This document shows, piece by piece, positions 45,257-57,316 of a DNA stretch of 64,000 nt. Position numbers and translations under genes: made by a program. How positions within the stretch are numbered: position 1 is the first letter of the stretch; each line of letters opens with the position of its first letter. The stretch is from Phreatobacter sp. (lineage in GTDB: Bacteria; Pseudomonadota; Alphaproteobacteria; Rhizobiales; Phreatobacteraceae). The stretch spans positions 1 through 64,000 of the forward strand of contig NZ_JALHMP010000008.1 of the NCBI RefSeq assembly GCF_022843985.1, written 5' to 3'. The notes beneath the pieces are model-generated. The model saw only the letters and a program-made list of their open reading frames with translations. It did not search any database and was not told the DNA's origin.

Positions 45257-45354
45257 GACAAGGTCCGCGCCGGCGCGGCCCGAGCGGCCGGCGTCATGTG
45301 CCTGACGTCTTCCTCACGGCCTCATGGCCCAGCCCCCTCCCCAATGCGACCCTG

Positions 45355-46071
45355 ATGGGCAAGAACCGTTTTCCCGTCTGGCGGCTCATTCAAAGCGAAC
45401 TGGAAGCGGAGATCCGCTCCGGCCTGATCGGTCCTGGCGACCAGTTGCCCTCGGAGAACGACCTCGCCGAGCGGTTCGCCGTGAACCGCCACACGGTGCG
45501 GACGGCTCTCGCCAATCTCGCCATGGTGGGCATGGTGCGGGCGCGGCGCGGGCGCGGCGTCTTCGTCGAGGACCGGCCGCCGGAATATCGCATCAACCGC
45601 GATTCCAAATGGAGCGAGATCGAGCGGCAGATGAATGCGGCGCCATCGGCACGCGTGATCGATGCCAGCGAGCGGGCGGCGAGTTCCTCCGTCGGCGGGC
45701 TGCTGGGACTGGCCGAGGGAACGCCCCTTCTGCTCGTCGAGAGCGTGCGCGGCGCTGCCCCTGCCCTCCTGATCTATTCCTACCACGTGCTGGAACATGT
45801 CCGCTTTGCCGGGATCGACGCGGCGGTGCGCCGGACAGGCAGCTTCACCGAGGCGCTGGCAGAATTCGGCGTCGACCAGTTCTTCCGCACCTCGACGTGG
45901 ATCGACTGCCGGATGCCCCGGCCGCGCGAGGCGGAAGCGCTGGCCATCCCGCTCGATGCCCCGGTTCTGGTGATGATGTATGTCGACAGCGACGCCGAAA
46001 GCCGGCCGCTGCTCTATGGCAATGCCGTCATCCCCAGCGGCAGCCTCATCCTGCGCATCGACACTCTCTGA
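45355..46071 (+). CDS. GntR-family regulator, HutC/PhnF subfamily
   Basis: A 238-aa regulator with a winged helix (FPVWRLIQSELEAEIRSGLI, then SENDLAERFAVNRHTVRTAL) and a UTRA ligand-binding domain from about residue 80, ending in GNAVIPSGSLILRID. It resembles PhnF, which controls phosphonate genes, and it is followed by an operon that includes phnDEC, which supports that reading. ATG 45355 gives a PhnF-like length; a GTG at 45298 would add 19 residues. A perfect inverted repeat between this gene and the next is a candidate operator. Confidence 0.9.
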   Translation: MGKNRFPVWRLIQSELEAEIRSGLIGPGDQLPSENDLAERFAVNRHTVRTALANLAMVGMVRARRGRGVFVEDRPPEYRINRDSKWSEIERQMNAAPSARVIDASERAASSSVGGLLGLAEGTPLLLVESVRGAAPALLIYSYHVLEHVRFAGIDAAVRRTGSFTEALAEFGVDQFFRTSTWIDCRMPRPREAEALAIPLDAPVLVMMYVDSDAESRPLLYGNAVIPSGSLILRIDTL

Positions 46072-46121
46072 AGCGCTTCGCCGCACTGCGGCATTTCCGG
46101 CGAACCGTCACACGCCCGTTA

Positions 46122-46146
46122 ACTTGTCGGCTTAAAGGCGACAAGT
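46122..46146. promoter_or_regulatory. inverted repeat, candidate operator of the transport operon
   Basis: ACTTGTCG (46122-46129) and CGACAAGT (46139-46146) form a perfect 8-base inverted repeat with a 9-base spacer, 33 bases before the first transporter gene and just after the regulator gene. The position fits an operator for the HutC/PhnF-type regulator; this role is inferred. Confidence 0.5.
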
Positions 46147-46178
46147 GAAGCCGTCGCCTCGACGGCGGAGGCGGGACG

Positions 46179-47366
46179 ATGGCCGGCATATCGCTTCGGA
46201 ACATCCGGAAGAGCTTCAAGGACGCGCAGATCCTGCACGGCGTCTCGCTCGACATCGCCGATGGCGAATTCCTGACGCTGGTGGGTCCCTCGGGCTGCGG
46301 CAAGACCACGCTGCTGCGCATCATCGCCGGCCTCGAGACCCAGGATTCCGGCGATGTCCTCATCGGCGACCGCATGGTCGACGACCTGCCGCCGAAGGCC
46401 CGCGACGTCGCCATGGTGTTCCAGTCCTATGCCCTCTACCCCTATATGACGGTGGCGGAGAACATCGCCCTGCCTTTGGAGATGCGGCGCCTGTCGGCAC
46501 TCCAGCGTCTGCCCCTGGCGGGACGTTTCATGCCAGGGGCGCGGGCAGCCCGTGCCGGCATCGACCGGGACGTCAAGGCCGTGGCCGATGGGCTCGGCAT
46601 CGGCCATCTCGCCGCCCGCAAGCCGGCCCAGCTCTCCGGCGGCCAGCGCCAGCGCGTGGCGCTCGCCCGCGCCATGGTGCGGCGGCCCAAGGCCTTCCTC
46701 ATGGACGAGCCGCTGTCCAACCTCGACGCCAAGATGCGCGTCCAGGCGCGCACCGAGATTTCCGAACTTCACCGCTCGCTCGGCGCCACCTTCGTCTACG
46801 TCACCCACGACCAGGCCGAGGCGATGACCATGTCGGACCGGGTGGCTGTCATGATGGGGGGCCACCTTCTGCAGGTCGCCCCGCCGCAGGTCATCTATGA
46901 CGATCCGCAGGATCTCGCCGTCGCCACGTTCATCGGGACGCCGGAGATCAACACGCTGCCGGGCCGGATCGGCGCCGACGGACGCGTCGAGGTGATCGGG
47001 ACGCCCTGGCCGGTCACGGTCGAGGGCCAGCCGGGTGCCGAAGTGACGGTTGCCATCCGCCCCGAGGCGCTGATGGTGACGCGCGGGGCCGCCAGTGACG
47101 CCATCGCCCTCGTCGGCACGATCCGTCATGTCGAGATGCTCGGCGCCGAGACGCTGGTCCATGTCGTCGCCAGCCCGCTGACCCGGCCTCTCGTCACGCG
47201 GATCGAACCGTCGGCGGCAGCGGCCTTGAAAAAGGGCGACCCGGTCGCGCTGTCGACCGACCCGCGCCGGGTCCTGGTCTTCGGCAAGGACGGAAAGCGG
47301 ATCGCGGTCCGCCAGTCCACCCCGGCTCTGACGCCGGCCGCGCGGGGGGTGACGGTCCATGTCTGA
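46179..47366 (+). CDS. sugar/glycerol-phosphate-type ABC transporter ATPase (UgpC/MalK family)
   Basis: A 395-aa ATPase with Walker A VGPSGCGKTTLL, signature LSGGQRQRVALARAM, Walker B FLMDEP and the switch His in VYVTHDQAEAMT. The extended C-terminal TOBE regulatory region (from about residue 250) marks the MalK/UgpC branch of carbohydrate importers. GGAGG lies a few bases before ATG 46179. A somewhat long insert (LQRLPLAGRFMPGARAARAG) lies in the helical domain. Its stop overlaps the next start. Confidence 0.93.
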   Translation: MAGISLRNIRKSFKDAQILHGVSLDIADGEFLTLVGPSGCGKTTLLRIIAGLETQDSGDVLIGDRMVDDLPPKARDVAMVFQSYALYPYMTVAENIALPLEMRRLSALQRLPLAGRFMPGARAARAGIDRDVKAVADGLGIGHLAARKPAQLSGGQRQRVALARAMVRRPKAFLMDEPLSNLDAKMRVQARTEISELHRSLGATFVYVTHDQAEAMTMSDRVAVMMGGHLLQVAPPQVIYDDPQDLAVATFIGTPEINTLPGRIGADGRVEVIGTPWPVTVEGQPGAEVTVAIRPEALMVTRGAASDAIALVGTIRHVEMLGAETLVHVVASPLTRPLVTRIEPSAAAALKKGDPVALSTDPRRVLVFGKDGKRIAVRQSTPALTPAARGVTVHV

Positions 47367-48294
47367 CCTCGCCCTCGCCGCACCGACACGCCTCGACCAT
47401 CGCGCGCACGCGCGGGCGGGCGAGACGGCCGAGCAGCTCGCCGCCTGGGTGCTGGCGGGACCGGCCTTCGCGCTGATCTGGATCCTGCTGCTGGGGCCGA
47501 CGGTCGCCGTCTTCGTGCTGTCCTTCACCGACTGGACCTTCGGCATGCCGGAGATCGCCTGGGCGGGGCTCGAAAACTACCGCGAGATGGCCGGCGACGC
47601 GGTGTTCTGGAAGACCCTGCGCAACACCCTGACCTATGTGGCCTTCGTGGTGCCGCTCTCGGTCTTTCTCGGGCTCGGCGCCGCCATCCTGATCGAGGCG
47701 GGAGAGAGCCTCAGAGGCTTCTACCGCGCCGCCTTCTTCCTGCCGGTGGTCTCGACCCTGCTCGCCATGGCCCTGGTCTTCCAGTTCGCCTTCCATCCGA
47801 CGGTCGGAGCCATCAACAGGACCCTCGCCCTGGTCGGCATTCCCACGACCGACTGGCTGAAGAACCCGGACACTGCGCTCTTCGCCCTCGGCGTGATCGG
47901 CATCTGGCAGGCGATCGGCCTGTCGATGGTGCTCTTCATCGCCGGGCTGAAGGCGATCCCGAAGGATCTCTACGAGGCCGCCGCGGTGGACGGTGCCGAC
48001 GGCCCCTTCGAGCGCTTCCGCCGGGTGACATGGCCGATGCTCGGCCCGGCCATGCTTTTCGTCGTCACCATCACCGCGATCCGCGCCTTCCAGGTCTTCG
48101 ACACGGTGCAGGTGCTGACCGACGGCGGCCCGAACAAGGCGACCAACGTGCTGCTGTTCCAGATGTACCAGGAGGGCTTCTCCTTCCTGCGCTCGGCCTA
48201 TGCGGCGGCCCTCACCGTCGTCTTCCTCGGCTTCGTCCTGCTGGTCACCGTCATCCAGGTGCGCCTCCAGGAACGCAACACCCATTACGGTTGA
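47359..48294 (+). CDS. carbohydrate-type ABC permease (UgpA/MalF family)
   Basis: A 311-aa membrane protein with six helices and the binding-protein-dependent transport EAA loop (YEAAAVDGADGPFERFRRVT). The N-terminal WVLAGPAFALIWILLLGPTV and VLSFTDWTFG segments are typical of UgpA-like permeases. It overlaps the ATPase gene by 8 bases and lies 8 bases before the second permease. Confidence 0.93.
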   Translation: MSDLALAAPTRLDHRAHARAGETAEQLAAWVLAGPAFALIWILLLGPTVAVFVLSFTDWTFGMPEIAWAGLENYREMAGDAVFWKTLRNTLTYVAFVVPLSVFLGLGAAILIEAGESLRGFYRAAFFLPVVSTLLAMALVFQFAFHPTVGAINRTLALVGIPTTDWLKNPDTALFALGVIGIWQAIGLSMVLFIAGLKAIPKDLYEAAAVDGADGPFERFRRVTWPMLGPAMLFVVTITAIRAFQVFDTVQVLTDGGPNKATNVLLFQMYQEGFSFLRSAYAAALTVVFLGFVLLVTVIQVRLQERNTHYG

Positions 48295-48302
48295 GGGGCC
48301 CC

Positions 48303-49148
48303 ATGCGCACGCGCTCCATCGCCGCGACCGGCCTCGGCTTCCAGCTCTTCCGCCATGCGGTGCTGGGCCTCGGCGCCTTCCTGATGCTGGCCCCCTTCGT
48401 CATCATGATCTCGGTCAGCCTGAAGCCGTCGGGCGAGATCTTCGCACCGGAATTCACGCTGCTGCCGAAACAGTGGCACGCCTGGCAGAACTATGCCGAT
48501 GCCTTCACCAAGCAGCCGCTTGCCCGCTACATCCTCAACGGCTTCATCGTCACCGGGTCCATCTTCGCCTGCCAGTTGCTGACGGCGCTGCCCTGTGCCT
48601 ATGCGCTGGCGAAGCTGCGCTGGCGCGGCCGCGAGACCATGTTCATGCTGGTCCTGCTCGGCCTGCTGATCCCGCCGCAGGTGACCGCCATCCCGCTCTA
48701 CATCCTGCTCTGGCAGGTCGGGCTGCTGAACACCTATGCCGCCATCATCCTGCCCTCGACCATCTCGGTCTTCGGCATCTTCCTGATGCGGCAGTTCTTC
48801 CTCACCGTGCCGGACGATCTCATCAACGCCGCCCGTCTCGACGGGCTCGGCGAGTTCGCCATCGTCTGGCGGATCATGATGCCGACGGCCATGCCAGCGG
48901 TGATCGCCTTCGGTGTCCTGTCGCTGGTGTGGAACTGGAACGAGTTCTTCTGGCCGCTCATCGTCGTGCAGTCCGAGCACCTCGCCACCCCGCCGCTCGG
49001 CGTCGTCTTCTTCGCCAATGCCGAGGCCGGCACGAATTACGGCCCGCTCATGGCGGCGGCCACCGCCATCACCGCCCCCCTCGTCATCGCCTTCCTCGCT
49101 GCCCAGCGCTGGTTCATCGACGGCGTCACCATGACCGCCGTCAAGTGA
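48303..49148 (+). CDS. carbohydrate-type ABC permease (UgpE/MalG family)
   Basis: A 281-aa permease with six helices. Hallmarks are FVIMISVSLKPSGEIFAPEF near the N-terminus and the EAA loop INAARLDGLGEFAIVWRIMM. It is the second permease partner of the gene before it. The matching solute receptor is not next, as is usual, but four genes downstream at 51698. Confidence 0.93.
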   Translation: MRTRSIAATGLGFQLFRHAVLGLGAFLMLAPFVIMISVSLKPSGEIFAPEFTLLPKQWHAWQNYADAFTKQPLARYILNGFIVTGSIFACQLLTALPCAYALAKLRWRGRETMFMLVLLGLLIPPQVTAIPLYILLWQVGLLNTYAAIILPSTISVFGIFLMRQFFLTVPDDLINAARLDGLGEFAIVWRIMMPTAMPAVIAFGVLSLVWNWNEFFWPLIVVQSEHLATPPLGVVFFANAEAGTNYGPLMAAATAITAPLVIAFLAAQRWFIDGVTMTAVK

Positions 49149-49173
49149 TCTCGACCCCCCAAGGAGACCTGTC

Positions 49174-50037
49174 ATGACCCTGATCGATCGCCGCATCCTT
49201 CTCGCCGCCGCAGGCGCCGCCATCGCCGCCCCCGCCCTTGCACAGGCCCGCCCGACGCTGAAGATCGGCCTCGGCCCGCAGCAGCCGACCCAGGCCGACA
49301 CCCGCCGCGTCTGGGAGCCGGTCTACAAGGCCATCGCCGACAAGGCGGGCTTCAACCTCGAACTGCAGGTGGCCAACGACTGGGCCGGCATCGCGACGGC
49401 GCTCGCCAACGAGCAGATCGACGTCGCGCAGATGGGCCCGTGGGGCTACATCCTCGCCAAGGTGCGCGGCGAGGCGCGCATCATCAACACGATGCTGGTC
49501 AACGGCATCCCCACCTACAAGGCCATCATCGTCGGCCGTCCCGGGCTCACCATCGCCAAATTCCCGGATGACGCCAGGGGCAAGTCGATGCAGATGCTCG
49601 ACGTCGGCTCGACCTCGGGCTGGCTCGTGCCGACCCATTTCCTCCGCTCGAAGGGCATCGAGCCGAAGACCTTCTTCGGTCGCTATGCGGAGGGTGCTTC
49701 CGCCGCCGCCGCCCAGATGGCGACCGTCAACGGCCAGGTCGACCTCGCCACTGGCTGGGACACCCATCGCAATACCATGATCCGCAACGGCACGATCCAG
49801 GCGACGTCCAACACGGTTGTTTGGGAATCCGATCCGCTGCCGAACGAGTGCGTGGTCGTGTCGAAGAGCTTCCCGCAGGCCCGCGCCGAGGTCCTGGCGG
49901 CGGCGCTCGCCGGTCTCTCCGACGAGGAGAAGAAGCTCCTGCCCTGGCCCTATACCGGCTTCGTGACCGCCACCCACGCACCCTACGAGGTCCTCGAGAA
50001 GATGGGCCGCGATCTCGGCGTCATCCGGACCTCCTGA
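49174..50037 (+). CDS. phnD: phosphonate-type ABC transporter substrate-binding protein (PhnD family)
   Basis: A 287-aa periplasmic receptor. After a signal peptide (RRILLAAAGAAIAAPALAQA) it reads LKIGLGPQQPTQADTRRVWE and has the oxyanion-binding loop LDVGSTSGWLVPTHF, where PhnD homologues hold the phosphonate group. AAGGAG precedes ATG 49174. It is followed at once by the PhnE and PhnC genes, which completes one importer inside the larger gene run. Confidence 0.92.
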   Translation: MTLIDRRILLAAAGAAIAAPALAQARPTLKIGLGPQQPTQADTRRVWEPVYKAIADKAGFNLELQVANDWAGIATALANEQIDVAQMGPWGYILAKVRGEARIINTMLVNGIPTYKAIIVGRPGLTIAKFPDDARGKSMQMLDVGSTSGWLVPTHFLRSKGIEPKTFFGRYAEGASAAAAQMATVNGQVDLATGWDTHRNTMIRNGTIQATSNTVVWESDPLPNECVVVSKSFPQARAEVLAAALAGLSDEEKKLLPWPYTGFVTATHAPYEVLEKMGRDLGVIRTS

Positions 50038-50039
50038 CC

Positions 50040-50867
50040 ATGACCCCTTCGGCGACCCCGACCCGGCGCACCGACGGCTCCTATGTGGAGCCGCCGGTCA
50101 CCTTATGGTCCCGCGCCTTCCTGGCGCGGGTGGCGGTCGGGATTGCCGTCGTCGCCTTCGTGGTGGCCTCAGTGCGGATCGCCGAGGTCGACCCCGCCAA
50201 GCTCGTGACCGGCCTGCCGCGGCTCTGGGCCTGGGCCTCGACGGCCTGGCCGCCCTATACGGGCGACTTCGACGCCTTCGTCTACCGCGCCCTGGAGACA
50301 GTGGCGATCGCGACGGTGGGGACGACGGTGGCGACGCTGCTGGCCTTTCCCCTGTCGATCTTCATCGCCCGCAACATGACGCCATCGCCGCTGCTGTCCG
50401 TTCCGGTGCGAGCGGTCGTCAACGCCTTCCGCGGCATCGACACCGTCGTGTTCGCTATCCTCTTCGTCGCGGCTGTCGGCCTCGGTCCCTTCGCCGGCGT
50501 GCTCGGGATGATCGTCCATTCGCTGGGAGTCATCGCCAAGCTCAATGCCGAGGCCATCGAGACCATTCCGCCGGCGCCTCTCGAGGCCGCGGCGCTGTCG
50601 GGCGCCAACCGCACCAAGATCGTCACCTATGCCATGTTGCCCTCGGTCCTGCCGAACCTCGCTTCGGTCTCCCTCTATGTCTGGGAGGCCAATGTCCGCA
50701 CCTCGACCATCCTCGGCATCGTCGGTGCCGGCGGCATCGGTATCGAGATCAAGGCGGCGATCGACCTGCTCGACTTCCAAAAGCTGCTGACGCTCTCGGT
50801 CATCGTGCTCGTCATGGTCACGGCCATCGACCAGTTCTCGGCTTGGCTCCGGCGGAGGCTCGTCTGA
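50040..50867 (+). CDS. phnE: phosphonate-type ABC transporter permease (PhnE family)
   Basis: A 275-aa membrane protein with about six helices and typical PhnE sequence: PLSIFIARNMTPSPLLSVPV, VVNAFRGIDTVVFAILFVAA and, late, GIVGAGGIGIEIKAAIDLLD. ATG 50040 lies 2 bases after the phnD stop. Its stop shares one base with the phnC start. Confidence 0.93.
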   Translation: MTPSATPTRRTDGSYVEPPVTLWSRAFLARVAVGIAVVAFVVASVRIAEVDPAKLVTGLPRLWAWASTAWPPYTGDFDAFVYRALETVAIATVGTTVATLLAFPLSIFIARNMTPSPLLSVPVRAVVNAFRGIDTVVFAILFVAAVGLGPFAGVLGMIVHSLGVIAKLNAEAIETIPPAPLEAAALSGANRTKIVTYAMLPSVLPNLASVSLYVWEANVRTSTILGIVGAGGIGIEIKAAIDLLDFQKLLTLSVIVLVMVTAIDQFSAWLRRRLV

Positions 50868-51670
50868 TGGCGGAGGTTCTCGCCCTTACCGGCGTCACCA
50901 AGACCTATGGGGCGACGACGGCGCTGGCCGACGTGTCGCTCGCCCTCCGGCCGGGCGAGGTCGTTGCCCTGGTCGGCCCGTCGGGTGCCGGCAAGTCGAC
51001 GGTCTTCCGCTGCGTGACGCGGCTCGTCGCCCCGGACAAGGGGACGGTCGAGGTCCTCGGACGCGATCTCGCCGGCCTCGGCGGCAGCGAACTGCGACGG
51101 GCGCGCCGCGACGTCGGCCTGATCTTCCAGCAATTCAACCTGATCGGCCGCATGTCGGCGATCGACAATGTGCTCGCCGGCCGCATGGGGCATGTCGCGA
51201 CATGGCGGGTCGTCACCCGCCTGTTCCCGCGTGAGGACCGCCAACTGGCGCTCGCCTGCCTCGATCGCGTCGGGCTCCTGGACAAGGCCTATCAGCGCGC
51301 CGATTCCCTCTCCGGTGGCCAGCAGCAACGGGTCGCCATCGCCCGGGTCCTGGCGCAGCGCTCACGCATCCTGCTCGCTGACGAGCCGGTCTCAAGCCTG
51401 GATCCGCAATCGGCGGACAATGTCCTGACGGTTCTGCGGACGGTGGCGCGCGAAAGCGGCATCGCGGTTCTCTGCGCGCTGCATCAGGTCGACCTCGCGC
51501 GCCGCTTTGCCGACCGCGTCGTCGCCCTGAGGGCCGGACGGGTCGTCCTCGACGGGCCAGCCAGCGCCTTCGACACCGCAGCCTTCACGACGATCTACGG
51601 GACGGCCGAGCATCCCCCGGCGGCCGCTCCGACGACCTGCGATGCCGGCCCCCGGCTCGCCCTTTCCTGA
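50867..51670 (+). CDS. phnC: phosphonate-type ABC transporter ATPase (PhnC family)
   Basis: A 267-aa ATPase with Walker A VGPSGAGKSTVFRCVTRLV, LIFQQFNLIGRMSAIDNVLA (a PhnC hallmark around the Q-loop), signature LSGGQQQRVAIARVLAQ, Walker B ILLADEP and the switch His in CALHQVDLA. It overlaps the phnE stop by one base. The carbohydrate-type receptor gene follows 27 bases after its stop. Confidence 0.94.
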   Translation: MAEVLALTGVTKTYGATTALADVSLALRPGEVVALVGPSGAGKSTVFRCVTRLVAPDKGTVEVLGRDLAGLGGSELRRARRDVGLIFQQFNLIGRMSAIDNVLAGRMGHVATWRVVTRLFPREDRQLALACLDRVGLLDKAYQRADSLSGGQQQRVAIARVLAQRSRILLADEPVSSLDPQSADNVLTVLRTVARESGIAVLCALHQVDLARRFADRVVALRAGRVVLDGPASAFDTAAFTTIYGTAEHPPAAAPTTCDAGPRLALS

Positions 51671-51697
51671 TGCATGCCTCTGACCCCTGGAGCGACC

Positions 51698-52981
51698 ATG
51701 ACCACGTCCCGCCGCACATTCATTGCCAGCGCCGCCGCTACGGTGGCCCTGCCCTCCTATCTGCGCGCCCAGTCCACGCCGGTGGAACTGCAGGTGCAGT
51801 ACTCCATTCCGGTCCTGTTCAAGGACCTGATGGAAAAGATCGTCGCCGACTTCCAGAAGGCCAACCCGACCATCAAGGTGACGCTGCGCGCGCCGGAGGT
51901 GGGCTATGAGGAAATCCTCCAGCGCAACCTGCGCGACGTCGTCACCAACACTTTGCCGGACATTGCCTTCCACGGCCTCAACCGTCAGCGCACCCTCGAC
52001 GAGCGCCGGATCCCTGTCGATCTCAAGCCCTTCATGGACGCCGATCCGGAGACTGCCTCGCTCGGCTTTTCGCCCTCGCTTCTGTCGCTCGGCCAGACCG
52101 GCAGCAAGCAGACCGGTATCGGCTTCGCCATGTCGACGCCGATCCTCTATTATAACGTCGACCTGCTGAAGGCCGCCGGTGGCGATCCGGACAAGCTGCC
52201 GACCACCTGGGACGAGGTCATCCGCCTTGCCGCCGCCATCCAGGCTCCGGCCCAGAACCGCACCGGCCTGTTCTATGACTGGACCATCACCGGCAACTGG
52301 GCCTGGCAGGCCCTTGTCATGTCGCATGGCGGAACGATGCTGAATGCCGACGAGAGCCGCGTCGCCTTCAGCGAAGAGCCGGGACAGAAGGCTATCCGCG
52401 TGCTGCGCAAGATGGTGGACGAGGGCAAGATGCCCGATATCCGCCCGGACACGGCCTTCCAGGACTTCTTCTCAGGCCGCCTCGGCATGTCGATGCAGTC
52501 CACCGCCCAGCTCGGCCGCTACAACCGCGAGATCGGCGGGCGCTTCAAGCTGGTCTGTGGCCGATTCCCGCTCTCGGCCGCCAATCCGCGCCTGCCCGCC
52601 GGCGGCAATGTCGCCATGATGTTCACCAAGGACCGCGCCCGCCAGGAAGCGGCCTGGAAGTTCATCAAATATGCCACCGGCCCGATCGGCGCGACGGCGA
52701 TGGTCAATGCCACCGGCTACATGCCGGGAACCACCATCCCGGCACAGCGCGAGGACATGCTCGGCAATTTCTATCGCAACAATCCGAACCACCTCGTCGC
52801 CATCCGCCAGCAGGACGTGATCAACGGCTGGTACGCCTTCCCGGGCCAGAACGCCCTGCGCATCACCGACGTCATCAACGATCATCTGCAGTCGGTGGTG
52901 AACAAGTCGAAGGGCGCCGACGAGGCGCTGACCGCCATGGCGGCCGCCGTGCAGCCCCTGCTGCCGCGCCGCGCCAGCTGA
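51698..52981 (+). CDS. carbohydrate-type ABC transporter solute-binding protein (UgpB-like)
   Basis: A 427-aa periplasmic receptor of the cluster-B (bacterial_SBP_1) fold with a twin-arginine signal (TSRRTFIASAAATVALPSYL) and LMEKIVADFQKANPTIKVTL at the start of the first lobe. It is presumably the receptor for the UgpA/UgpE-like permeases at 47359 and 48303, displaced by the phn genes. ATG 51698 is preferred to ATG 51674 because the Tat motif follows directly and GGAG lies just upstream. A strong hairpin follows the stop. Confidence 0.92.
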   Translation: MTTSRRTFIASAAATVALPSYLRAQSTPVELQVQYSIPVLFKDLMEKIVADFQKANPTIKVTLRAPEVGYEEILQRNLRDVVTNTLPDIAFHGLNRQRTLDERRIPVDLKPFMDADPETASLGFSPSLLSLGQTGSKQTGIGFAMSTPILYYNVDLLKAAGGDPDKLPTTWDEVIRLAAAIQAPAQNRTGLFYDWTITGNWAWQALVMSHGGTMLNADESRVAFSEEPGQKAIRVLRKMVDEGKMPDIRPDTAFQDFFSGRLGMSMQSTAQLGRYNREIGGRFKLVCGRFPLSAANPRLPAGGNVAMMFTKDRARQEAAWKFIKYATGPIGATAMVNATGYMPGTTIPAQREDMLGNFYRNNPNHLVAIRQQDVINGWYAFPGQNALRITDVINDHLQSVVNKSKGADEALTAMAAAVQPLLPRRAS

Positions 52982-52998
52982 TCTCCATCCACGCCATT

Positions 52999-53027
52999 GG
53001 CCCGTCCCGCCCCGGCGGGACGGGCCT
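52999..53027 (+). terminator. strong GC hairpin after the receptor gene
   Basis: GGCCCGTCCCGCC (52999-53011) and GGCGGGACGGGCC (53014-53026) are perfectly complementary, a 13-base arm pair, with only a weak T run after it. It stands in the 77-base gap before the phosphoesterase gene and may end or attenuate the transport operon. Confidence 0.65.
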
Positions 53028-53058
53028 TGCTCCGTCCCCTGCCCGTCGAGAACCGCCC

Positions 53059-53928
53059 ATGACCCGCGCCGCCCGCCTCTGCATCGTCACCGACATCCAC
53101 CACGGCAAGCCGTCCTTCTCGAAGGCGGGTCCGGCCGCACTCGGTCTGATGGAAGAGTTCCGACGCTTCGTCGCCGAAGCCGATCCCGACATTGTCCTCG
53201 ATCTCGGCGACCGCATCTCGGATGAGGCACGGGAGAGCGATCTCGTGCTGCAGAAGGAAGTGGCGGAGGCCTTCGCCCCCATCGCCCAGCGGCGCTTCCA
53301 TCTCGATGGCAACCACGACCGCGACCATCTGGAGGTCGCCGACAACGACGCCATTCTTGGCAGGCAGGTCGGCCATGAGACCATCGATATCGGCGCCTGG
53401 CGCATCGTCGTCTGGCGCGCCGACGCCAAGCTGCACCGGCCAGACGGCTTCGCGCTGCAGGATGCCGATCTCGCGTGGCTCGCCGCGACCATCGGCGCCG
53501 CCGACCGCCCGCTCGCCATTGTCAGCCACGTCCCGGTCTCCGGCCATTCGCAGGTCGGCAACCGCTGGTTCGAGAACAATGCGCGCTTCTCGACCTATCC
53601 GACGGCCGAGCGCGTCCGGGCGGCGCTGCGCCTTGCGAAGGTGCCGGTCGTCTGGATCTCCGGCCACGTCCACTGGAACACGCTGACCATGGTGGACGGC
53701 ATCGCCCATCTGACGCTGCAGTCGCTGACCGAAACCTTCGCGACGGCGGGCGAACCGGCGGGCGCATTCGCGCTGCTGGAGCTTTCGGATCAGGTGCTCT
53801 GGCGTGTCCATGGCCGCGACGACTTCACCTGGTCGACCCGCGCCGAAGCGCTGTCACGGCGCTGGCTCGCGCCGATGCCGGATTTCCGTGAGCTGGCCGG
53901 AACGAAGCTCCACGCGGCCGCCGAATAG
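53059..53928 (+). CDS. metallophosphoesterase of the organophosphorus locus
   Basis: A 289-aa calcineurin-like phosphoesterase with the metal motifs in order: CIVTDIHHGKPS, DLGDRIS, DGNHDRDH, VSHVPVSG and SGHVHWN. It resembles GpdQ-type phosphodiesterases. No signal peptide is seen, so it acts in the cytosol on an imported compound. Its place at the end of a run of glycerol-phosphate-type and phosphonate-type importers suggests that it releases phosphate from the imported substrate; this is inference. Confidence 0.9.
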   Translation: MTRAARLCIVTDIHHGKPSFSKAGPAALGLMEEFRRFVAEADPDIVLDLGDRISDEARESDLVLQKEVAEAFAPIAQRRFHLDGNHDRDHLEVADNDAILGRQVGHETIDIGAWRIVVWRADAKLHRPDGFALQDADLAWLAATIGAADRPLAIVSHVPVSGHSQVGNRWFENNARFSTYPTAERVRAALRLAKVPVVWISGHVHWNTLTMVDGIAHLTLQSLTETFATAGEPAGAFALLELSDQVLWRVHGRDDFTWSTRAEALSRRWLAPMPDFRELAGTKLHAAAE

Positions 53929-53980: not shown

Positions 53981-54421
53981 TCACAACGGCCGCATGAGCG
54001 TCGCGAGCCGCTGCAGCGGCGCGAGCAGCGCTTCATATTCGGCCGGGCCGAGATGGTCGCGGACGCGATCGACATGGGCCTGTGCCATGGCGTGCAGGGT
54101 GGCGAGGAAGGTCTTTCCTTCATCCGTCAGTGTCAGATCCACGGATCGCCTGTCGCGGGCGGACGGCGTCCGCAGCACCAGGCCCCGCGCTTCCATCCGG
54201 CGGATCAGGGGCACGAAATTGGTCTTCTGGATGCCCAGCGTTTCGGCGACCTGCGAGGGTCCGGCGCCGGGATTGCTGTCGATGACGGTGAGCACCGCAT
54301 AGTCCGCCGGCGACATGCCGTGTGCAGCGAGCACCGCGCCGATATCGGCAAAGACGGCGAGCTGCGCCCGGCGCAGGAGGTAGCCGACATGGCCGTCGAG
54401 AGGCCCCAGATCGAGCGCCAT
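53981..54421 (-). CDS. MarR-family transcriptional regulator
   Basis: A 146-aa winged-helix regulator. The MarR pattern is clear: GYLLRRAQLAVFADIGAVLA, SPADYAVLTVIDSNPGAGPS, QKTNFVPLIRRMEARGLVLR and the wing DRRSVDLTLTDEGKTFL. Many relatives repress aromatic-acid genes and respond to an acyl-CoA. It is divergent from the crotonase and ligase genes, and overlapping inverted repeats lie between them. ATG 54421 has GAGG 5 bases upstream and gives the normal length. Confidence 0.92.
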   Translation of the reverse strand: MALDLGPLDGHVGYLLRRAQLAVFADIGAVLAAHGMSPADYAVLTVIDSNPGAGPSQVAETLGIQKTNFVPLIRRMEARGLVLRTPSARDRRSVDLTLTDEGKTFLATLHAMAQAHVDRVRDHLGPAEYEALLAPLQRLATLMRPL

Positions 54422-54506
54422 CACCACCTCGTGATCCCCGGTCGCGGCGCGACCGGGAGCGGTATAGGCCCTTTCCCCATTGACACAAGCCTCGCGCTGG
54501 AAAATA

Positions 54507-54532
54507 GTTATATCAAATAACCAATAATGGTT
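54507..54532. promoter_or_regulatory. overlapping inverted repeats, candidate MarR operator
   Basis: GTTAT-ATCAA-ATAAC (54507-54521) and AACCA-ATAA-TGGTT (54519-54532) are two perfect short inverted repeats in an AT-rich pocket between the divergent MarR and crotonase genes, just before the GTG start of the latter. This is where a MarR repressor would be expected to bind. Confidence 0.5.
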
Positions 54533-54549
54533 CCGTGGGAGCGGCGTCC

Positions 54550-55341
54550 GTGCCTGACCTTTCATCCTGCCCGGGTCTGAACGTCCAGACCGACGGAGCC
54601 ATCGCCGTCATCCGGCTGGCACGCCCCGCCAAGCGCAATGCCCTCAGCGAAGACATGGTGGCGGGCCTGTCGCGGGCTGTGTCCGGCCTGCCTGCGGCGA
54701 TCCGCGCGGTGGTCCTCCACGGCGAAGGCGACCATTTCTGCGCCGGCCTCGATCTGGGCGAGGTGGATGGCGAGCCTGACCTTGCCGCCGCCATCCATCA
54801 CTCGCTCGGCTGGCACCGCGCCTTCCAGGACATCCAGTTCGGCCGGGTGCCCGTCATCTCGGTTCTGCACGGCGCCGTGGTCGGCGGCGGGTTCGAACTG
54901 GCGGCTGCAACCCATATCCGCATCGCCGAGCAATCCGCCTTCTTCGCGCTGCCGGAAGGCCAGCGGGGCATCTTCCTCGGCGGCGGCGGCTCGGTCCGCA
55001 TCCCCCGGCTCATCGGAACCCCGCTGGTCCAGGACATGATGCTGACCGGACGCACGCTCTCCGCCGACGAGGCGAAGGCGGCCGGCGCCTGCCAGTACCG
55101 GGTCGCCGACGGCGCCGGACTGGCGCTTGCCATGGATCTCGCCCGCAAGGCGGCCGGAATTGCCGACATGACCCGTTTCGCGGTGATCCACGCCCTGCCG
55201 CGCATCGCCGAGGCCGACCCCCATATCGGCTACCTGACGGAAGCGCTGATGGCCTCGGCCGCCCAGACCATGCCCGAGGCCAAGGCCCGCGTCCGCGATT
55301 TCCTCGCCAAGCGGGCGGCCAAGGTCTCCCGGCCCGCCTGA
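54550..55341 (+). CDS. enoyl-CoA hydratase/crotonase-family protein
   Basis: A 263-aa crotonase-fold enzyme. It shows IAVIRLARPAKRNALSEDMV, the oxyanion loop FCAGLDLGEVDG and VVGGGFELAAATHIRIAE. The position beside a feruloyl-CoA-synthase-like ligase suggests hydration (and perhaps retro-aldol cleavage) of an aryl-acryloyl-CoA. Start chosen as GTG 54550, with GGGAG 8 bases upstream; GTG 54535 is also in frame. Confidence 0.9.
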   Translation: MPDLSSCPGLNVQTDGAIAVIRLARPAKRNALSEDMVAGLSRAVSGLPAAIRAVVLHGEGDHFCAGLDLGEVDGEPDLAAAIHHSLGWHRAFQDIQFGRVPVISVLHGAVVGGGFELAAATHIRIAEQSAFFALPEGQRGIFLGGGGSVRIPRLIGTPLVQDMMLTGRTLSADEAKAAGACQYRVADGAGLALAMDLARKAAGIADMTRFAVIHALPRIAEADPHIGYLTEALMASAAQTMPEAKARVRDFLAKRAAKVSRPA

Positions 55342-55432
55342 CGGGCGCCGCCGGGCCGCATGCTCCGGCACAGTGCATTCCGCATGTCCCCCAACGCCTC
55401 GCCAGCCACAGGCGGCACCCCCGGAGGCTTCG

Positions 55433-57316
55433 ATGTCGCGTGTCGCCCCCCGTCAGACGACTGATGCCGATGGTGACGGCTGGCACCGGCTCGGCCGCCT
55501 TGAGCCTGTCATCGAGGAGCGGGCCGACGGCGTCCGGTTCGTCTCGGTGCGCCAGACGATCGGCGCCTATCCGCGCGCGCTGCCAGACCGCCTGGTCCAC
55601 TGGGCGGCGGCGGCGCCCGACCGCACCTTTCTCGCCGAAAGAACAACCGAGGGCGCCTGGCGCAGCCTGACCTATGCCGAGACGTTGCGGCAGGTCCGGC
55701 GCCTCGCCGCCGGGCTCCTGCGCCACGACCTCTCGGCCGAGCGGCCGGTCGCGATTCTGTCGGGCAACGGCATCGACCATGCCCTGGTCGCCCTCGCCGC
55801 CATGATGGTCGGCGTGCCCTATGCGCCGATCTCGCCGCCCTACAGCCTGGTGGCGCGCGACTTCGGCAAGCTCGCCTATTGTCTCGACCTCCTCACACCC
55901 GGTCTTATCTTCGTCGCCGATGCCCATCCGTTCCGGGCGGCGCTGGCCGCCGTCGCGGGACAGGACCGGGTGCTGGTCGCCGCGCAGCGGTCGGAGACGG
56001 GCGGCGCCCTGCCGCTGACGGCGCTCGAAGGCGAGGCGGACGATGCCCGGGTCGACGCGGCCTTCGCGGCGATCGGTTCCGACACCATCGCCAAGTTCCT
56101 GCTGACCTCGGGTTCGACCGGCGAGCCGAAGGCGGTGATCAATACCCAGCGCATGCTGATGGCCAACCAGGCCATGCTGGAGCAATGCTTCCCCTTCCTC
56201 GCCACGACGCCGCCCGTCTTCGTCGACTGGCTGCCGTGGAACCACACCTTCGGCTCGAACCACAATTTCGGCATGGTCCTGACCCATGGCGGCACGCTGC
56301 ATATCGACGAGGGCAAGCCGGTGGCAGCGGGCATCCTGCCGACGGTCCGCAACCTCCGCGAGATCGCGCCGACCGCCTATTTCAACGTGCCCAAGGGCTA
56401 CGAGGCGCTGCTGCCGCACCTGCAGGAGGACCCTGCCTTCGCCCGCCACTTCTTCAGCCGCCTCGACATGCTGTTCTATGCCGGTGCCGGCCTTGCCCAG
56501 CCGGTCTGGGACGGCTACCGCGCCCTGGCGCGCGAGGCCGCCGGCCGCGACATTCCCTTCGTCACCGGGCTCGGGGCGACCGAAACCGCCCCCTCTGCCC
56601 TGATGAACCTGCGCACCACCGGCCAGGCCGGCGCCATCGGCCTGCCGATGGCCGGCGTGACGCTGAAACTCGTGCCGGTGGACACCAAGCTTGAGGCACG
56701 GGTCAAGGCCGAGACGGTGACGCCCGGCTATTGGCGCCGGCCGGACCTGACGGAAAAGGTCTTCGACGAGGAGGGCTTCTACCGGTTCGGCGATGCCGTC
56801 GCCTTCGCTGATCCGGCCGATCCGGCCCAGGGTTTCCTGTTCGACGGCCGCCTGTCGGAGGACTTCAAGCTCGCCACCGGCACCTGGGTCAGCGTCGGCC
56901 CTCTGCGGCACCTGATCTCTTCGAACCTCGACCCGCTGATCCGCGACACGGTCATCACCGGCCACGACCGCGATGAGGTGGGCGTGCTGCTGGTGCCGGA
57001 CCGCGAGGCCTGCGCCGCCTTCACCGGCCTGCCGCCTGGCGATGCCGGCCTCTACGCGCATGCGGGGCTGATTGCGGACATCACACAGCGTCTGGCCAGT
57101 CTGGCCGCGGCGGCCACGGGCTCGTCCAACCGGGTGGCGCGGGCGATGATCCTCACGGTACCGCCATCGCTGGAGGACGGCGAACTCACCGACAAGGGCT
57201 CGATCAACCAGCGCGCCGTGCTCACCCGCCGCGCCGATCTGGTCGCTGCCCTCCATGCCGAGCGGCCCCCGGCCAATGTCATCGTCTTGAAGTCCCGTGC
57301 AGGAGTTGCGCCATGA
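55433..57316 (+). CDS. feruloyl-CoA synthase-like AMP-binding ligase
   Basis: A 627-aa adenylate-forming enzyme. The ATP loop reads LLTSGSTGEPKAVINTQRML; later motifs are FDGRLSEDFKLATGTWVSVG and the C-terminal lysine region DKGSINQRAVL. The order and the SEDFKLxTGTW motif match feruloyl-CoA synthases (Fcs), which activate ferulate or related aryl-acrylates to CoA esters. GGAGG stands just before ATG 55433. Its stop overlaps the amidohydrolase start (ATGA). Substrate other than ferulate is possible. Confidence 0.88.
   Translation: MSRVAPRQTTDADGDGWHRLGRLEPVIEERADGVRFVSVRQTIGAYPRALPDRLVHWAAAAPDRTFLAERTTEGAWRSLTYAETLRQVRRLAAGLLRHDLSAERPVAILSGNGIDHALVALAAMMVGVPYAPISPPYSLVARDFGKLAYCLDLLTPGLIFVADAHPFRAALAAVAGQDRVLVAAQRSETGGALPLTALEGEADDARVDAAFAAIGSDTIAKFLLTSGSTGEPKAVINTQRMLMANQAMLEQCFPFLATTPPVFVDWLPWNHTFGSNHNFGMVLTHGGTLHIDEGKPVAAGILPTVRNLREIAPTAYFNVPKGYEALLPHLQEDPAFARHFFSRLDMLFYAGAGLAQPVWDGYRALAREAAGRDIPFVTGLGATETAPSALMNLRTTGQAGAIGLPMAGVTLKLVPVDTKLEARVKAETVTPGYWRRPDLTEKVFDEEGFYRFGDAVAFADPADPAQGFLFDGRLSEDFKLATGTWVSVGPLRHLISSNLDPLIRDTVITGHDRDEVGVLLVPDREACAAFTGLPPGDAGLYAHAGLIADITQRLASLAAAATGSSNRVARAMILTVPPSLEDGELTDKGSINQRAVLTRRADLVAALHAERPPANVIVLKSRAGVAP

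Follow-up and report, generated by a model that had tools for sequence, protein, structure and literature searches.

The stretch of DNA analysed here (the window) comprises the first 64,000 nucleotides (nt) of contig NZ_JALHMP010000008.1 of a Phreatobacter sp. (assembly GCF_022843985.1), and contains a run of nine genes, all on the plus strand, in the order phnF-ugpC-ugpA-ugpE-phnD-phnE-phnC-ugpB-mpe, where mpe denotes a metallophosphoesterase gene. The run is probably a conserved, co-regulated operon in which two ATP-binding cassette (ABC) importers are set on a phosphoesterase module. It begins with phnF (45355-46071), encoding a GntR/UTRA regulator with PF00392 (GntR) and PF07702 (UTRA) domains (182.8 bits against TIGR02325, cut-off 156.8); the orthologues have an ATG at the same place, and a longer start is possible at 45298 (GTG). 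The genes of the first importer follow: a MalK/UgpC-type ATPase with a TOBE domain, ugpC (46179-47366; PRK11650, 376.4 bits, below the cut-off of 432), and two PF00528 permeases, ugpA (47359-48294; UgpA model, 124.3 bits, below 335) and ugpE (48303-49148; UgpE model, 133.3 bits, below 297). Then come phnD (49174-50037; PF12974), for a receptor of the HtxB branch with an altered pocket, the permease gene phnE (50040-50867; TIGR01097, 254.9 bits, cut-off 216.7) and the ATPase gene phnC (50867-51670; TIGR02315, 306.3 bits, cut-off 266.1). The CUT1 receptor gene ugpB (51674-52981; PF13416/PF01547) has E. coli UgpB as the top PDB match of its product (E 4.7e-18) and scores 77 bits against the UgpB model, below the cut-off of 411; mpe itself (53059-53928; PF00149) encodes a calcineurin-like phosphoesterase.

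All nine genes, including the complete phnD-phnE-phnC set, lie as the initial annotation of this DNA had given them. PhnF, PhnE and PhnC are above their curated equivalog cut-offs. The four proteins named after Ugp are relatives of those families, as had been proposed, but none of them reaches its curated NCBIfam cut-off (the E. coli UgpB control gives 944 bits against 411), and the Ugp names are therefore to be read as family-level labels. From ugpC to ugpB the genes are closely coupled: ugpC and ugpA overlap by 8 nt, 8 nt lie between ugpA and ugpE, 25 nt between ugpE and phnD and 2 nt between phnD and phnE, phnE and phnC overlap by 1 nt, and 3 nt separate phnC from ugpB. The earlier description of overlaps or tiny gaps throughout holds for this part, with no gap above 25 nt, but not for the two ends, where phnF is 107 nt from ugpC and ugpB is 77 nt from mpe. 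The coupling is compatible with joint production of the two importers.

The gene order was compared in 12 genomes of the genus, and 397 genomes of the order were searched for mpe, PhnF and the palindrome described below. The complete nine-gene run is present in six Phreatobacter genomes, namely the source genome (G000), G003, G006, G007, G009 and G010, with near-identical junctions and a phnF-ugpC gap of 79 to 112 nt. A seventh, G001, has it spread over three contigs, one running from phnF into phnD, one from within phnD into ugpB and one that opens with mpe, which we infer to be one contiguous run. The order is kept, and the junctions nearly so, in all six complete phnDEC-bearing loci, indicating that the layout is beyond chance; the outer neighbours vary between sub-groups. 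Genomes G008 and G002 carry phnF-ugpC-ugpA-ugpE-ugpB-mpe without phnDEC, and no such PhnD was found in them at E <= 1e-40. The remaining three (G004, G005 and G011) have only UgpB paralogues of about 42%; mpe was not found in them at E <= 1e-20, nor was such a PhnF at E <= 1e-45.

In a tree constructed from UgpC, UgpA, UgpE, UgpB and Mpe (the UgpE of G377 is missing), the six phnDEC genomes are split from G008, G002 and the outgroups (R. terrae, L127, and G377, L077) with 100% bootstrap, and nothing of phnDEC lies between ugpE and ugpB in either outgroup. Since loss in G008 and G002 would require a prior gain, parsimony suggests a single insertion of phnDEC into an older operon of a Ugp-like importer and mpe as the simplest history. 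The Ugp-like importer and PhnDEC are not obligate partners, because the former occurs with mpe but without phnDEC in two of the nine genus loci and in the outgroups. G008 and G002 have a Dpp/SBP5 importer 3' of mpe on the same strand; a scan with the same seeds gave none in the phnDEC loci of G009, G007, G006 and G010, and in G003 the contig ends. The Ugp-like importer is thus repeatedly accompanied by a second one, of changing type. A further CUT1 importer, with two tandem UgpB receptors (about 42% to that of the window), is found near mpe in G007 (L036) and G001 (L112); the source genome has one with tandem UgpB receptors on contig C5 (L045), not on the contig of mpe.

The Mpe protein has a full two-metal site, the ligands D12, H14, D51, N85, H157, H203 and H205 being invariant in all 16 aligned sequences. 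Its structure model (mean predicted local distance difference test, pLDDT, 84.4) is nearest to the zebrafish dimetal phosphatase 2nxf (Z 25.8); the glycerophosphodiesterase GpdQ (3d03) follows with Z 22.8, a root-mean-square deviation of 2.7 and 228 aligned residues, and Lmo2642, purple acid phosphatases and Rv0805 rank shortly after it. As modelled, Mpe is GpdQ/class III phosphodiesterase-like in its fold and two-metal site; folds of this type leave the substrate unfixed. No signal peptide was seen by eye, and the enzyme is therefore taken as cytosolic, in line with the initial annotation.

Relatives of mpe occur at E <= 1e-20 in 19 of the 397 order genomes, 10 of them outside Phreatobacter. 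A pattern scan of genome contigs gave 218 relatives, and the best 80 were analysed; many of these contigs are cut, and close relatives, Phreatobacter itself (L110-L114) among them, are over-represented in the sample. Genes for SBP5 and DppB are present within 7.5 kb of mpe in 68 of the 80 loci, a HAD-type phosphatase gene in 55, and ugpA with ugpE in 16. A phnD is near mpe in four, three of which, all from Phreatobacter, have phnDEC inside the mpe run; in the fourth (L155) the phnD has 26% identity and lies about 7 kb off, outside the run. The order Dpp-mpe-mpe2-ugpCAEB is found on one strand in L130, L133, L136 and L137. According to annotation and partly Pfam, mpe and the HAD gene stand near BMP-type importers on plasmids of Phyllobacterium and Rhizobium sullae; on an R. 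etli plasmid their neighbours are CUT1 importers and another metallophosphoesterase. Judged by gene content, the mpe loci are a predicted phosphodiesterase module (an esterase, often with a phosphatase) with an exchangeable importer. In the loci from the R. sullae and Phyllobacterium plasmids (L197 and L198), a MurR/RpiR regulator is encoded beside mpe, the HAD phosphatase and the BMP-family ABC importer. The idea that phnF and HAD exclude each other in mpe operons was abandoned, since both are present in three of the 80 loci when weak GntR matches (E <= 1e-5) are counted.

In the UgpB-like receptor, Y78, S154, S276 and Y349 align with Y42, S121, S247 and Y323 of E. coli UgpB, the Tyr/Ser/Ser/Tyr set tied to phosphate binding (PMC12718374). 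As an identifier of the ligand the set was weakened, the controls keeping it too; the alignment indicates that it places the clade and does not identify the ligand. The same paper names Glu66, Arg374 and a Gly for the glycerol hydroxyls. At the first two positions the window receptor and all six aligned genus orthologues have Leu and Thr, and the Gly is retained. Of the two glycerol-clamping Trp, both columns are Trp in the MAFFT alignment, but only one is in the profile alignment with 9lff. Because the receptor has neither Glu66 nor Arg374, its residues do not specifically indicate glycerophosphodiesters as the ligand. A structure model of this receptor (mean pLDDT 39) was set aside.

The PhnD receptor has HtxB as its top PDB match (E 5.7e-59 by phmmer and 1.1e-97 by profile), far ahead of PtxB and PhnD. 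It gives 133 bits against the equivalog TIGR03431, below the cut-off of 261.1, and reaches that of the broader phosphate/phosphite/phosphonate subfamily TIGR01098 (113.8 bits, cut-off 112.05). HtxB has W/N/F/R/D at positions 52/128/158/178/206, where W52, N128 and F158 are tied to hypophosphite selectivity and R178-D206 forms a buried ion pair (PMC5700983). Compared with HtxB and the 'hybrid' receptors of that paper, the window PhnD is placed in the HtxB branch and retains Trp52 (its Trp70), a residue present in all 16 aligned sequences; unlike HtxB, it has S/A/T/E at the other four positions, a set shared by five other Phreatobacter sequences and G081. Nine other aligned members of the order, including a second copy in the source genome, have W/S/H/R/D, which, as a guess, may be the 'hybrid' class. 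By these residues the pocket is a distinct, fixed type, whose ligand is not readable from known cases. Relatives of this HtxB-like phnDEC are encoded beside TIGR04283 and/or TIGR04282 'arsenosugar' glycosyltransferase genes in L100, L103 and L108 (and, by eye, L104); L103 also encodes a fusion of a calcineurin phosphoesterase with a radical SAM protein (Rv1681 type by its best NCBIfam match, below cut-off).

The phnF-ugpC gap contains a block (46106-46148) strongly conserved in all nine aligned genus loci, the remainder of the gap being variable, and this block is a likely promoter/operator region. Within it lies the palindrome ACTTGTC-N11-GACAAGT (46122-46146), exact in eight of the nine loci and with one substitution in G003. 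Among the 397 order genomes the exact full palindrome is found in eight, all Phreatobacter and the same eight as in the locus alignment, and the source genome has no second site within one mismatch. Outside the genus, the order set has its closest PhnF proteins in G214 (60%) and G336 (55%), and that of Mesorhizobium L-8-3 (54%, L153) was reached through mpe. In G336 (L071) the short form CTTGTC-N11-GACAAG is exact both between the divergent phnF and mpe and ahead of an SBP5/Dpp operon, and in L153 it occurs with one mismatch between divergent phnF and a DppB...mpe run. Markov resampling of these gaps gave an exact match in 1 of 20000 cases for L071, and a match with up to one mismatch in 6 of 20000 for L153. 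In each of the three other lineages seen, PhnF of 54-60% identity clusters with a phosphodiesterase gene: a PF01663 gene, with Dpp genes, in G214 (L220), and mpe in the loci L071 and L153, which were also reached through mpe itself. The palindrome is thus the likely PhnF operator.

A stem-loop with a stem of 12 base pairs and a loop of 4 nt, without a T-run, lies 3' of ugpB on the plus strand (52999-53026). RNA folding gives -31.3 kcal/mol (z -2.05, 6 of 200 shuffles equally stable), and a GC-rich inverted repeat is found at the same place, directly after ugpB, in all eight aligned genus loci; a promoter/terminator consensus scan placed no terminator at this hairpin. In the source genome the gene next to mpe is marR, on the opposite strand. 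The MarR regulator is the first gene of 53981-57316, and the genes after it look like a ferulate (ech/fcs) set, with enoyl-CoA hydratase-like and acyl-CoA synthetase-like products, all names but MarR being given by eye.

The absence of genes for the carbon-phosphorus (C-P) lyase, as first described, applies to the 64-kb window but not to the genome: PhnJ is encoded at position 144197 of contig C9, with PhnL and PhnM close by, and the present locus is on contig C8. PhnJ is found in all 12 genus genomes, including three without the nine-gene locus, and in G007, a single contig, it is about 2 Mb from the locus. No linkage of PhnF to C-P lyase genes was seen at this locus. Further members of the PhnD receptor family are encoded on other contigs of the source genome, and a search of this genome for GDPD gave one match, at C32:6816. 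In G003 (C46), G006 (C1, 234061-241613) and G007 (C1, 2703255-2710714), phnJ has a pair of phnD genes, spaced by about 1 kb, at a distance of 5-7 kb.

We consider the locus to be an organophosphorus-ester scavenging operon, with a probability of about 0.6 for the full scheme as follows. PhnF would bind the palindrome in the phnF-ugpC gap and be released by a phosphorylated intermediate of the pathway, and one transcript starting from this gap would make both importers. The CUT1 receptor would deliver a phosphodiester or phosphonate monoester of an alcohol other than plain glycerol, and Mpe would cut the imported ester in the cytosol. PhnDEC would import another phosphorus compound of smaller size, which may be a product of this kind that is free outside the cell, and the hairpin after ugpB may raise expression of the receptor over the enzyme or lower read-through into mpe. 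The organophosphorus uptake suggested in the initial annotation is partly supported, by the importer and phosphatase context of mpe in the 80 loci, the GpdQ-like fold with its two-metal site and the phosphate set of UgpB; glycerophosphodiesters are not specifically indicated as the substrate.

Several observations weigh against this scheme. Sister loci in G008 and G002 lack phnDEC, mpe is missing from three of the 12 genus genomes, and a search of the 12 Phreatobacter genomes for relatives of the L072 HAD phosphatase, made without positive control, found none; this genus thus does not show the chain of two enzymes that other mpe operons have. The four phosphate residues of UgpB are present in 24 of 33 aligned sequences, eight more having Thr for one Ser. 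For the palindrome, one more exact copy of the short form is among the sites listed for the source genome (C16:52416), at about chance level; no palindrome within two mismatches was found in L220, whose G214 PhnF is the closest outside the genus, and L077, L127 and L099 gave scattered two-mismatch matches only. The phnF-ugpC gap contains no Pho box with up to three mismatches (the whole window has eight such matches versus 2.9 expected), and the consensus scan gave no sigma-70-type promoter match there.

Other explanations divide the components differently. The CUT1 importer could take up phosphonate esters, such as glyceryl phosphonates from phosphonolipids, from which Mpe would free the phosphonate; PhnDEC would import free phosphonate, and the C-P lyase encoded elsewhere would break the C-P bond. 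This version accords with a regulator above the cut-off for PhnF, the C-P lyase regulator, with the genus-wide presence of PhnJ, with the HAD relative not found in the uncontrolled search, and with the GpdQ-like fold of Mpe, GpdQ being an enzyme that acts on phosphonate monoesters. However, the C-P lyase seems to be separately served, by the two other PhnDs near PhnJ in G006 and G007 and by a second, higher-scoring PhnF above cut-off that is encoded with a PhnD on contig C36 of the source genome; moreover, PhnJ also occurs where the locus does not, the full palindrome has no second genomic site within one mismatch, and PhnD is closer to HtxB than to the phosphonate PhnD. We regard it as unlikely.

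If PhnDEC were a hypophosphite/phosphite importer merely sharing a promoter with a phosphoester system, the kinship to HtxB and the kept Trp52 would follow, but N128, F158, R178 and D206 of HtxB are Ser, Ala, Thr and Glu in all six genus sequences tested, and this explanation is improbable. Slightly more improbable still is that unrelated importers have been thrown together, the CUT1 system importing a sugar with phnDEC and mpe as passengers. Against it, a Ugp-like importer is separately linked to mpe in L127, L071, L077 and the Dpp-mpe-mpe2-Ugp runs, the spacing is conserved over six species, and a similar palindrome is found at phnF near mpe in other lineages; in its favour, CUT1 receptors mostly bind sugars, phnDEC resembles one insertion, and the locus is absent from three of 12 genomes.

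Compared with known systems, the proposed scavenging operon resembles ugpBAECQ, the glycerol-3-phosphate/glycerophosphodiester uptake operon of E. coli, for which the gene order ugpB-A-E-C-Q was observed in strain K-12, in that the genes of a CUT1 importer stand in one row with that of a phosphodiesterase. It differs in its calcineurin-like enzyme (UgpQ is of GDPD type), in a receptor without Glu66 and Arg374, in phnF in front, in the inserted phnDEC and in the unreached Ugp cut-offs. The agrocinopine acc operon of Agrobacterium encodes the receptor AccA, the phosphodiesterase AccF, the phosphatase AccG and the repressor AccR, whose effector is a phosphodiesterase product (PMC4526662). The likeness is one of plan only and lies in the combination of importer, phosphodiesterase and repressor (and phosphatase, as in many mpe operons); in Phreatobacter, the uncontrolled search with the L072 HAD found no HAD phosphatase. 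By analogy the locus would work like ugpBAECQ or the acc operon, membership in either not being established. The glycerol-phosphate transporters GpxB and UgpB show that receptors of the PhnD and the UgpB type can work side by side in the uptake of organophosphates by the same bacterium (PMC12718374), and the two types occur together here; in the figure legends of that paper the gpx and ugp neighbourhoods are named separately, in contrast to the single run of Phreatobacter, and the Arg/Thr tail pair of GpxB would correspond to Thr/Glu in the window PhnD if the positions are equivalent. In a literature search by title and abstract start, with most subscription journals outside its coverage, no description of this layout was found, in agreement with the initial annotation, which knew of no characterised system of this kind.

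A wider proposal can be put forward only tentatively. The mpe family may be the core of an undescribed, importer-swapping system for phosphodiester or phosphonate-ester assimilation in Alphaproteobacteria, which in at least three lineages would be controlled by a sub-branch of PhnF through CTTGTC-N11-GACAAG; in Phreatobacter, PhnDEC with its own Trp/Ser/Ala/Thr/Glu pocket would be the second importer where the sister species have Dpp, and one regulated operon would thereby bring in both a phosphoester and the free product of its cleavage. The organic phosphorus compounds that bacteria take up intact, and the ways in which they open them, are incompletely known. With two receptors tied to one enzyme and one regulator, any one ligand measured would constrain the others, and with mpe as a family tag the same pathway may become readable in many genomes where the receptors are called only 'sugar', 'peptide' or 'phosphonate' binding.

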